Shown here: piece after piece, positions 495 through 32,261 of the stretch
How positions within the stretch are numbered: position 1 is the first letter of the stretch
Layout of the letters: the number at the start of each line of letters is the position of its first letter
Origin: Melioribacteraceae bacterium
GTDB taxonomy: Bacteria; Bacteroidota; Ignavibacteria; Ignavibacteriales; Melioribacteraceae
Direction: 5' to 3'
Assembly: GCA_021740785.1 (NCBI GenBank)
Contig: JAIOZI010000055.1
Coordinates: forward strand, 1-32,407
DNA length: 32,407 nt
Program-made: the position numbers and the translations under genes
The notes under the pieces: model-generated
The model's input: only the letters and a program-made list of their open reading frames with translations
What the model was told of the DNA's origin: nothing
The model's database searches: none

Positions 495-556
495 CTGATA
501 GTTATTGCGGTCGGACGAATTGAATATTGACAATCTCCTACATAAAGCCGGGGAAA

Positions 557-605
557 ATTGACTATTGACTATTGATGATTGACGATTGACGATTGATGAT
601 TGACT
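557..605. repeat. Heptamer array (7 units, attgaNN)
   Basis: Seven perfect-length 7-mers in a row: attgact, attgact, attgatg, attgacg, attgacg, attgatg, attgact. Only the last two bases of the unit vary. Confidence 0.9.
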
Positions 606-631
606 ATTAAAAAAAGATGCGTTCTCATTCC

Positions 632-666
632 CTTGTTTCTTACCTCTTAAATCTTACGTCTTAGCT
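632..666. repeat. Heptamer array (5 units, cttaNNt)
   Basis: Five 7-mers: cttgttt, cttacct, cttaaat, cttacgt, cttagct. The start and end of the unit are kept while the middle varies. The same unit type reappears at 724-758 after an irregular pyrimidine-rich spacer. Confidence 0.85.
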
Positions 667-723
667 TTTCCCAAGTTCTCCATTTCCCCCTTCTCCCCTT
701 CAAAAACAACTCTTCTCCCTTCC

Positions 724-758
724 CTTAACTCTTAATTCTTATTTCTTAAGTCTTAAGT
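724..758. repeat. Heptamer array (5 units, cttaaNt)
   Basis: Five 7-mers: cttaact, cttaatt, cttattt, cttaagt, cttaagt. Same family as the array at 632-666. Read on the opposite strand, it resembles the caagtat/taagtat array after nuoF. Confidence 0.85.
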
Positions 759-963
759 ACCCGTTTTTGATCCTTTTCACTATGTGCTTTGCCCTTTGCC
801 TTTAACCGTTCTCCACTTCTCCGTTTCAATCATTCAAAAACAATCCACAACCCTTCTGCTACGGATTCACGAATACAAAAATTAAGAATAGCCTTTGACG
901 AATGATCGATTCCGTGAAAATCGGTGTTGTCTGTGTAGTCCGTGTTCTATTCTTTGAAATCGT

Positions 964-1362
964 CATTTTACGATTCGATCTCTTCATTTTGCGATTTGAT
1001 GTCGTCATTTTGTGAATCAACTGCGCCATTCTGTCAGCCGAGTGCGCCATTTTGTCGTCGCAAGTTGTCATCAGGTGACTTAGAGTTGCCATCAGGAGAT
1101 TTGAAGTTGTCATCAGGAGAGTTGAAGTTGCCATCAGGTGACTTGAAGTCGTCATCAGGAGACTTGAAGTTGTCATCAGGAGAGTTGAATTCGTCATCAG
1201 GAGAGTTGAAGTCGTCATCAGGAGAGTTGAATTCGTCATCAGGAGAGTTGAAGTCGTCATCAGGAGAATTGAAGTTGCCATCAGGAGATTTGAAGTCGTC
1301 ATCAGGAGAGTTGAAGTCGTCATTTGGAGTGTTGAGGTCGTTATCAGGAGACTTGAAATTGC
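964..1362. repeat. 21-bp minisatellite, 19 units
   Basis: Nineteen tandem units of exactly 21 bp with no length variation. The first five (964-1068) are diverged and begin catttt or cattct. From 1069 on, most units begin catcagg and end ttgaagtcgt or ttgaagttgc. Variation concentrates at unit positions 8, 11, 17, 19 and 21. Because 21 is divisible by three, all frames that lack a stop in the unit stay open: SSGELKS heptapeptides on the plus strand, and FNSPDDD and LLMTTST heptapeptides on the minus strand. No frame has a ribosome binding site at a plausible start outside the array, so I treat it as non-coding, with a repeat protein as the alternative. Confidence 0.93.
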
Positions 1363-1492
1363 CTTTAGTTATTTCAGACAATACCAAGGCATTGGAAATT
1401 ATTTTACCAATCGATATCGAAAATCCTTATCTTTATTTCGTAATGAAAAATTGATGTAAATCCATTCTTTAGAAATAAAATTGGAGGAACTC

Positions 1493-3703
1493 ATGGCTTA
1501 CTATGAAGACCTCGATAAAATAGCCATATCAGTAAAATCACACCGTTTATGTAAGAAGCTGCTGAAAGAAAATCCTAAGTTAGAAGAGATAATGTTTGCC
1601 TCGAAGAATGAAACCGAAGCGCTAATTGGAGTAAAAAATTGGATATTGGAAAATCTTACCGATAGCCCCCAGGCAATTGAATATTATGAACAGGGTGTTG
1701 CGAGCGGAATTTCTTTTAAGTCGTTAAAGTGGAGTGACATTGCCGCTATTCGTTTTCTGGATTACATCGATAATGCCGGAAGAGAATTTATCGATCTGAA
1801 TTTACGGGGACAAATTGCCGTGAGTAATCCAATTAAATTAATTTGGTTAGCGGTTAACAAAGGAACCGGCGGCGCTAAACCCGATTTCTTCGAAGATATG
1901 CTTCATTTATTCCGCCAGTTACTAGGTAAAGATGAACGACAAATTTATACCCGGGAAAAACTAAATATGTGGATGAACAGGTTTCCAGCCGGACTCGATC
2001 CCCGCATTGTTGCACTTCGCGAAGAAAACCGTGAGAGAATATTAAAGATCATTATTAATAAAATTGATGAAGGGGAAATAAACGATTCTAAGTACAAGTT
2101 TGAACCCGGTATGAATCAAGATGAAAAATTACAAGCTGCACTTGGCTGGTGGAATGAAAGTACATTCCATCTTAGGTTTGCTGTTCGAAGTGCGGATTTG
2201 CTTAATGAGATGCTCGGTTACTCGCTTGATCCCGATACGATGAAAATATTATACGATGCAGAGAAAAAGGGAATTCCGTTTTTTGTTAATCCGTATTATT
2301 TATCCCTGCTGCATGTGCGCGTGCCTTACTTTGCAATCGGCGCCGATCTGGCAATACGGCATTATGTTGTTTACAGCCGTCAGCTCGTTGATGAATTCGG
2401 TTACATCACCGCGTGGGAAAAGGAAGATAAAGTTGAACCGGGTAAACCTAATGTTGCCGGCTGGATTTTACCTTCGCATCATAATGTTCATCGTCGTTAC
2501 CCTGAAGTAGCAATACTAATTCCCGATACAGTGGGAAGAGCATGCGGCGGCTTGTGTTCATCTTGCCAGCGCATGTATGATTTTCAAAACGGGTACCTCA
2601 ATTTCAACCTAAACAAATTGAAACCCGACGAAACCTGGCCGGAAAAACTTGAGAGGTTGATGAAATACTTTGAAGAGGATTCGCAGCTTCGTGATATTCT
2701 TATTACCGGCGGCGATGCATTGATGAGCAGTGATCATTCTCTTAAAAAAGTATTGGATGCAGTTTATGAAATGGCTAAACGAAAAAAAGAAGCCAATGAA
2801 AATAGACCTCTTGATAAAAAGTATGCGGAAATTCAGAGAGTGAGATTAGGAACAAGGCTCCCGGTTTATTTACCTCAAAGGGTAACGGATGCTCTTGCCG
2901 AACTGCTGGCTGAGTTTAAAAATAAATCCGCAGAAATTGGAGTTAAACAATTCGTTATTCAAACTCATTTTGAATCTCCTATGGAAGTAACTCCCGAAGC
3001 CAAAGCTGCTGTATCAAAATTAATTGAAGCAGGCTGGACGGTTACGAATCAGCATGTATTCACTGCGGCGGCATCTAGACGCGGACACAACTTAAAGCTT
3101 CGCGAAACTCTTAATGAAATTGGTGTGCTTCCGTATTACACGTTCACCGTAAAAGGGTATATGGAAAATTATTATAACTTTGCCCCGAACGCCAGAGCAG
3201 TTCAAGAAAGTATTGAAGAAAAAGTTCTCGGACTTGTACCCGAAGAAAAGTATGATGAAATAAAAACCTTCCCGGAAAATGCAGAGTCAATGATTGATAA
3301 TATTCAATCAATAAAGAAAGAATCAAAAATCCCTTTTTTGGCAACTGATAGAAATGTACTTAACCTGCCTGGTGTCGGAAAGAGTTTGACTTACCGGGTA
3401 ATCGGAATTACACGATACGGCAGAAGGGTGCTGGAATTTGAACATGACGGAACGAGGAATCATAGTCCGATAATAGAAAACATGAAAAAAATAGTAATAA
3501 TTGAATCGAAATCAATTAGCGAGTACTTGAAGCAGTTAGAGGAAATCGGGGAGGAAATATCAGAGTACTCGGGGTTGTATGGTTATTCAATCGGTGAAAC
3601 AGAATCGAGAATTCCGATTTATGAATATCCCGAATATGATTTTGAAATAACGGATAAATTTACAAACCTGAAAATTCCGGCAGATATAAAGATGACAGGT
3701 TAA
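1493..3703 (+). CDS. KamA-family radical SAM aminomutase (lysine/glutamate 2,3-aminomutase-like), long form
   Basis: Radical SAM, PLP-dependent amino-group migrase of the lysine 2,3-aminomutase family. The [4Fe-4S]/SAM motif CGGLCSSC supplies Cys351, Cys355 and Cys358 in the CxxxCxxC spacing. LPGVGK near residue 630 aligns with the glycine-rich loop that carries the PLP lysine in lysine 2,3-aminomutase (PGGGGK), so Lys630 is the likely Schiff-base residue. At 736 aa it is much longer than the classic enzyme (about 415 aa); the extra is mostly an N-terminal region of some 300 residues with no motif I recognise. The start is ATG 1493, because GGAGG at 1483-1487 is well placed for it; the TTG at 1481 would lie inside that site. 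No lysine-fermentation genes are nearby, so the substrate (lysine, glutamate or another amino acid) is open. Confidence 0.88.
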   Translation: MAYYEDLDKIAISVKSHRLCKKLLKENPKLEEIMFASKNETEALIGVKNWILENLTDSPQAIEYYEQGVASGISFKSLKWSDIAAIRFLDYIDNAGREFIDLNLRGQIAVSNPIKLIWLAVNKGTGGAKPDFFEDMLHLFRQLLGKDERQIYTREKLNMWMNRFPAGLDPRIVALREENRERILKIIINKIDEGEINDSKYKFEPGMNQDEKLQAALGWWNESTFHLRFAVRSADLLNEMLGYSLDPDTMKILYDAEKKGIPFFVNPYYLSLLHVRVPYFAIGADLAIRHYVVYSRQLVDEFGYITAWEKEDKVEPGKPNVAGWILPSHHNVHRRYPEVAILIPDTVGRACGGLCSSCQRMYDFQNGYLNFNLNKLKPDETWPEKLERLMKYFEEDSQLRDILITGGDALMSSDHSLKKVLDAVYEMAKRKKEANENRPLDKKYAEIQRVRLGTRLPVYLPQRVTDALAELLAEFKNKSAEIGVKQFVIQTHFESPMEVTPEAKAAVSKLIEAGWTVTNQHVFTAAASRRGHNLKLRETLNEIGVLPYYTFTVKGYMENYYNFAPNARAVQESIEEKVLGLVPEEKYDEIKTFPENAESMIDNIQSIKKESKIPFLATDRNVLNLPGVGKSLTYRVIGITRYGRRVLEFEHDGTRNHSPIIENMKKIVIIESKSISEYLKQLEEIGEEISEYSGLYGYSIGETESRIPIYEYPEYDFEITDKFTNLKIPADIKMTG

Positions 3704-32189: not shown

Positions 32190-32198
32190 ATGTAAAAA

Positions 32199-32261
32199 CA
32201 AGTATCAAGTAGTAAGTATCAAGTAGTAAGTATCAAGTATCAAGTAGCAAGAAACAAGAAA
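32199..32261. repeat. Heptamer array after nuoF (9 units)
   Basis: Nine adjoining 7-mers starting 9 bp after the nuoF stop: caagtat, caagtag, taagtat, caagtag, taagtat, caagtat, caagtag, caagaaa, caagaaa. On the other strand the unit reads like the ctta-type arrays at 632-758. It lies between nuoF and the insertion sequence. Confidence 0.9.

Follow-up and report, generated by a model that had tools for sequence, protein, structure and literature searches.

The window analysed in this study, a contig of 32,407 nucleotides (C9) from a 4.85-Mb Melioribacteraceae genome in 115 contigs, contains a tandem array of nineteen 21-bp units at positions 964..1362, which we judge with about even confidence to be an orphan, helically phased non-coding array that was amplified unit by unit. 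In the explanation proposed here, the conserved property would be the spacing, with one short sequence placed every 21 bp in intergenic DNA. A length of 21 bp corresponds to two turns of B-DNA and equivalent letters are therefore found on the same face of the helix. The spacing may be kept through proteins bound side by side on this face (the partner protein where it is present), while the units would multiply by unit-length slippage or unequal crossing-over, as a comparison with a second copy in the same genome (contig C49) suggests. The window array would be an orphan of a partnered kind of array found in other genomes, its partner gene having been lost from, or never present in, this genome.

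Structure and setting of the array

The nineteen units of the array (964..1362, unstranded) span 399 bp without any change in length, as the original prediction stated. This was observed in the TRF output, in the unit alignment and in the leave-one-out register, where all nineteen units prefer position 0 within ±10 bp. TRF assigned a period of 21 to three segments (953-1012, 1006-1056 and 1062-1361), and the third of these has 14.3 copies and 0% indels. The lag-21 identity of the array is 0.79 compared with 0.26 expected from composition, whereas the identities at lag 7 (0.24) and lag 14 (0.25) are at background, which indicates that the 21-bp unit does not consist of three heptamers. Units 1-5 (964..1068, unstranded) are diverged and of the CATTTT or CATTCT type, while units 6-19 (1069..1362, unstranded) are of the amplified CATCAGG type, with CATCAGG in units 6-17, CATTTGG in unit 18 and TATCAGG in unit 19. 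The divergence from the consensus is 0.10 for units 6-19 and 0.20 for all nineteen units together, and the predicted gradient from five diverged to well-kept units is thereby borne out. The units are contiguous and do not show the constant repeats and unique spacers of a CRISPR array. No pairs of inverted repeats were found in positions 1-1500.

A flank of dispersed short-word repeats (500..960, unstranded) precedes the array, and pieces of it occur at many sites in the genome. On the other side, the array had been placed just upstream of kamA, and a KamA-like radical SAM gene (1493..3703, plus strand) does start with an ATG at 1493, 131 bp 3' of the array, its TIGR00238 score of 167.8 bits being under the cut-off of 199.2.

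The surrounding DNA is itself rich in repeats. Positions 1-139 are the end of a multi-copy element with thirteen more copies (99-100% identity), all of them at contig ends, so that the element breaks the assembly. Intergenic DNA made of 7-, 8- and 9-bp words dispersed through the genome was observed at 200-960 and 32197-32258, and a word of about 40 bp from this DNA (CCGTGAAAATC...) matches 14 other genomes of the family.

Related copies and searches for the unit

The genome has two sites at which the array was found together with about 460 bp of flank, and a third site with only part of the array. In the second copy (C49, locus L021), the flank shows 77% identity to window positions 500-960 and the first units show 95% identity to positions 999-1060. 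The C49 array consists of 17 diverged units with a mean divergence of 0.36 from the consensus, of which sixteen are in register. The common first units are followed there by some twelve diverged 21-bp units of other sequence, only two of which have the form [CT]ATCAGG, whereas C9 has 13-14 CATCAGG-type units and one additional unit at the 5' end. As C49 holds only two, the [CT]ATCAGG unit was probably amplified in or near the window; the alternative is a loss in C49, and we favour the former direction because the C9 units have diverged so little. The C49 array is flanked on one side by the 3' end of a T9SS-type gene (type assigned by eye) and on the other by what is left, on the reverse strand, of a second such gene end. 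This remnant is 66 bp long, is 79% identical to L101 and has a stop directly ahead of it. The third site (C76, locus L022) carries about 90 bp of the array, in which two anchors are 32 instead of 42 bp apart, a shift of 10 bp.

Searches of other genomes did not recover the CATCAGG array, and no match to the unit was obtained in plasmids or phages. Pattern scans for the unit returned eleven stretches in genome contigs and three in viral contigs, none of the fourteen being within a longer 21-bp array, although the matches L136-L138 have a few local direct copies. Among 150 listed matches, pairs of GTCATTTT are spaced by 21 in fifteen cases compared with ten and four at the neighbouring spacings; these are mostly due to chance and we draw nothing from them. 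A further 21-bp array with a different unit (TGACGCCGTTCTTCCTGACGA, 6.8 copies) is found on contig C14 of the same genome (L082, 771-912). Among the 37 arrays outside long ORFs in this genome, eleven have a period that is a multiple of 7.

Coding potential

Two open frames run through the array, one on the plus strand (942..1454, 170 aa, repeating SSGELKS) and one on the minus strand (1034..1387, 117 aa, repeating FNSPDDD), and neither was accepted as a gene. The array had been described as open in three frames. This is true with one qualification: plus frame 2 and minus frame 0 are free of stops over 964-1362, and the FNSPDDD frame contains two stops, both in units 1-5, with 108 codons open; the other three frames contain 15, 3 and 28 stops.

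Coding constraint had been suggested from the variable unit positions 8, 11 and 17, which were correctly calculated to be third bases in both the SSGELKS and FNSPDDD frames. The per-frame check of this bias showed that third positions are indeed the most variable, both in C9 (entropy 0.94 vs 0.74 and 0.50) and in C49 (1.46 vs 1.15 and 1.02), and the non-consensus letters in the fourteen well-kept units are distributed 14, 10 and 5 over third, second and first positions of the plus frame. The excess does not, however, extend beyond column permutation (p = 0.23 and 0.16). The SSGELKS frame has no stops in either C9 or C49, and under two nulls this stop avoidance has P values of 0.0195 and 0.010 in C49 and of 0.0025 and 0.0425 in C9, six frames having been examined and the column null for C9 mixing two unit types. 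When parts of the arrays were considered, units 5-16 of C49 alone gave P values of 0.031 and 0.032 while units 6-19 of C9 alone were uninformative (P = 1.0 and 0.20). The strongest argument against a non-coding reading is this avoidance of stops in one frame, for which that reading does not account.

The C9 ORF (P0001) matches Pfam DUF4097 (PF13349) with 31.4 bits, over the gathering cut-off of 22.9 (E = 1.5e-7), while the C49 frame has no match. Translations of other 21-bp arrays match an unrelated family at E = 2.7e-6, below the cut-off of that family, and we read the DUF4097 match as a coincidence of repeats. The codon log-odds are -0.06 for C9 and -0.26 for C49, whereas all 25 genes of the window lie between +0.13 and +0.39; the test is unspecific because the closed minus frame 2 of C49 scores +0.26, inside the range of genes. 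The open frame of C49 terminates across the 66 bp that are antisense to the remnant of the T9SS-type gene end. No homologue of the SSGELKS frame was found in viral contigs, and the 164 genomes of the order yielded only weak heptad look-alikes, several of them with stops. The antisense end of the C49 frame, the 10-bp shift in C76, the codon content and the lack of a convincing homologue together suggest that the window array is non-coding and probably not a gene. The ORF tails of C9 and C49 were also compared as possible homologues (p = 0.028 for DNA, 0.28 for protein), a candidate that was abandoned as the C49 tail is antisense to the T9SS-gene end.

Strict 21-bp arrays beside PQLLE-like helical genes

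A heptad protein query retrieved, from other genera, strict 21-bp arrays whose units differ in sequence from those of the window, although a query with a 7-residue period favours a period of 21, which biases the arrays found first. Two of the retrieved arrays were located 5' of homologous genes. A search with the helical protein encoded there found 18 places in 9 of 164 genomes of the order, and a 13-row profile found 66 places in 32 of 391 genomes of the class. A gene was counted as positive where the lag-21 identity reached at least 0.55 in an 84-bp window not more than 1 kb upstream. The link, first seen in the heptad-query loci, was then tested on the 18 places, on 25 new loci of the 66 and on 35 later loci from the 36 places that remained, the 36th (G095:C129) being L303, which was already included. 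Left out were a 43-codon fragment at a contig start (L312) and two genes with less than 300 bp upstream among the first 43 loci, as well as three of the 35 later loci with too little upstream DNA; weak partial matches such as L376 (49 codons with a stop) were retained. Array limits were placed by eye or by lag threshold.

Of 40 helical-family genes with enough upstream DNA, 31 were positive, thirteen among the 15 genes of the order set and eighteen among the 25 of the class set, compared with 9 of 795 control regions (Fisher p = 2.6e-40). Of the genes fetched later, 17 of 32 were positive upstream, and five of those that were not gave a signal of 0.58-0.96 on the downstream side. In total, 48 of 72 helical genes were positive compared with 2 of 189 genome-matched controls (p = 9.6e-32), the counts of arrays not being independent as the partner genes include close relatives. 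The remaining 24 partner genes have no upstream signal at the threshold, and seven of these have a downstream one. The 795 regions of the first control are upstream of other long ORFs in six genomes, of which G030 alone holds the partner; this control is thus unmatched, and the second was drawn from nine partner-holding genomes. At least five of the nine passes in the first control also have a lag-7 identity of 0.69 or more, and both passes in the second are one region with a 7-bp repeat. The control regions overlap in places.

The units of the partnered arrays are unrelated between most loci, with a GC content from 0.23 to 0.68, while the period is constant. Over 35 of these arrays, 20 of 397 units were out of register in the leave-one-out analysis, fourteen of which are first or last units. 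With the edges counted, eleven of the 35 arrays have no open frame among the six. No codon-phase bias was found over 32 arrays (Fisher p = 0.998), and the p-values are shifted upwards (KS p = 0.014), contrary to what coding would produce. A census of a 1.6-Mb sample yielded no additional long array of 21-bp period. Four 21-bp arrays in other genomes (L170, L172, L176 and L184) have no partner within the fetched 2-3 kb, and the L170 array was found in only one of twelve genomes of its genus, which is its own. No neighbour family recurred in more than six of the compared loci once the partner, translated arrays and antisense frames were set aside.

The partner protein is about 230 aa long, with longer variants. 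The NCBIfam PQLLE family (NF052641) matches 13 of 13 members of alignment A1 with a best E of 4.6e-14, a weak match as the one displayed score is 47.4 bits against a curated cut-off of 80, and the entry as displayed carries no function. No convincing match was found in Pfam, PHROGs or PADLOC. The AlphaFold2 model is all-helical with two long helices (33-89 and 137-192; pLDDT 89.6, pTM 0.73) and a low-confidence Gly/Pro-rich tail. Foldseek found no match to it at E ≤ 0.001 in PDB or BFVD, and the best VIA-align Z of 9.0 is in the common range of the tool for helical models, which is a generic helical likeness. The partner was not found in viral contigs, plasmids or phages (the latter two queried with one member). 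Neither the single protein nor the 13-row profile detected it in the genome of the window, and a broader profile found no helical-family gene in the window, L021 or L022.

The window array has the spacing and the strictness of the partnered arrays and no detectable partner gene, and we do not claim that it belongs with them. As their unit sequences are arbitrary, period and strictness are the only features through which a kinship could be recognised; both this kinship and the binding of a protein are what we infer. We tentatively suggest, as a rather doubtful extension, that the array with its conserved 21-bp spacing and the all-helical protein that would recognise or maintain it form a two-part module of this bacterial class, of which the window array would be an orphan.

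Several other features were observed in the loci compared. Cas9-like frames (by eye) are found near PQLLE-like genes in three genera (L332 3-632, L335 2-553 and L307 2-781), and in L332 a 21-bp array lies between the divergent Cas9-like and PQLLE-like genes. Recombinases that by eye resemble integron integrases, and that share 66% identity, occur in L301 (271-1311), adjoining a PQLLE gene with an array, and in L172 (3-989), adjoining a 21-bp array in a locus with no PQLLE gene. A second pair of related proteins, helical by eye (L174 888-1376 and L178 1-360), has a strict 21-bp array directly downstream; one more profile match of this family (L287) is without an array. L256 (19-2442) contains repeats spaced by 65-67 bp with a constant ACTTTAATCGCACCTATATGGAATTGAAAT core and has a CRISPR-like look.

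RNA structure

RNA of the window array was found to be no more structured than shuffles on either strand (z of 0.71 for plus and +3.37 for minus), and Rfam gave no match at threshold, with one match far under its threshold. In the partnered arrays, folding of the gene strand is slightly better than that of shuffles (z negative in 23 of 32, mean -0.97), so that an RNA role of those arrays is conceivable; no such advantage was seen for the complement (z negative in 16 of 32, mean -0.10).

Alternative explanations

A peptide gene, a structural DNA or RNA element and neutral slippage DNA were the options originally offered for the array. Among these a DNA element of fixed spacing fits best, neutral slippage is a serious rival, a peptide gene is disfavoured, and an RNA element finds no support in the folding of the window array. 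The array could be a plain minisatellite without function, formed by slippage or unequal crossing-over in intergenic DNA that is rich in repeats and close to a mobile element, with the strict period resulting from unit-length duplication, and we give this reading a substantial though minor share of our confidence. The repeat-rich flank with its dispersed words, the failure to find the array elsewhere, the young look of the fourteen well-kept units at a divergence of 0.10 and the missing partner gene all agree with it. On the other hand, indels would be expected in C49, where 16 of 17 units are in register despite a divergence of 0.36, and a neutral origin leaves the link of 21-bp arrays to one gene family unexplained. 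The window array itself may function as the partnered arrays would, with sites lined up along one face of the DNA, or it may be a relic or a neutral minisatellite.

We consider it improbable that the array is a fast-evolving short protein gene with the heptapeptide repeat SSGELKS in the plus frame. The frame is open in both C9 and C49 with stops avoided, third-position entropy is highest and DUF4097 is matched over its cut-off, yet the entropy is within permutation, the C49 tail is antisense to the remnant of the T9SS-type gene, C76 is shifted and the codon log-odds, in a test that is unspecific, are unlike those of the genes. Relatives are absent from viral contigs and limited in the order to weak look-alikes, several with stops, and the E values reached by translations of other 21-bp arrays with an unrelated family diminish the weight of the DUF4097 match. 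A repeat RNA, such as an antitoxin resembling those of type III toxin-antitoxin systems, in which tandem RNA repeats precede a protein gene, shares its layout of repeats followed by a gene with the partnered arrays, the gene strand of which folds somewhat better than shuffles. It is nevertheless the reading to which we give the least weight, as the window array is not structured beyond shuffles and matches no Rfam family at threshold, the gene that follows it is KamA-like and not a nuclease toxin, and the partner is modelled as all-helical with no significant structural match. The array might also be a minisatellite carried inside a dispersed, MITE-like element of the kind of BrickBuilt from Porphyromonas gingivalis; the two copies with flank and the third fragment agree with this, but no inverted repeat was reported in positions 1-1500 and the full composite was found only twice, which makes such an element unlikely.

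Comparison with known systems

In the available text on BrickBuilt, the unit is 23 bp long with nineteen occurrences in one strain and small inverted-repeat ends (PMC4596501). As far as that description goes, the window array resembles it in being an intergenic, spacerless tandem array with a unit in the low twenties of bp and a flanking leader, and differs in its unit of 21 bp, its occurrence as two copies and a fragment, and the absence of detected inverted repeats. In the open PMC literature we found nothing on PQLLE, on intergenic bacterial 21-bp tandem repeats or on intergenic tandem repeats with the search term Ignavibacteri.

The heptanucleotide STRR repeats of cyanobacteria are intergenic, as is the array studied here, and multiples of 7 are frequent periods in the genome of the window too, but the window array has no 7-bp substructure (lag-7 identity of 0.24 vs 0.26 expected). 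Type III toxin-antitoxin repeats are 34-46 nt long. In the accessible descriptions they resemble the partnered arrays as tandem repeats upstream of a protein gene, whereas the window has no structured RNA, no toxin-like partner and a period of 21. In iteron and partition-site arrays, direct repeats are spaced by whole turns of the helix and lie next to a gene encoding the protein that binds them. The 21-bp arrays resemble them in this spacing, with a putative cognate binding, while no Rep or Par gene was recognised in the window.

Bacterial minisatellites are often regarded as slippage noise. If the two-part module is true, the orphan array in the window could serve as a free binding track, a decoy or a relic, and the combination of a fixed two-turn period, a free sequence and a strong link to one uncharacterised family would mean that the spacing itself is selected.
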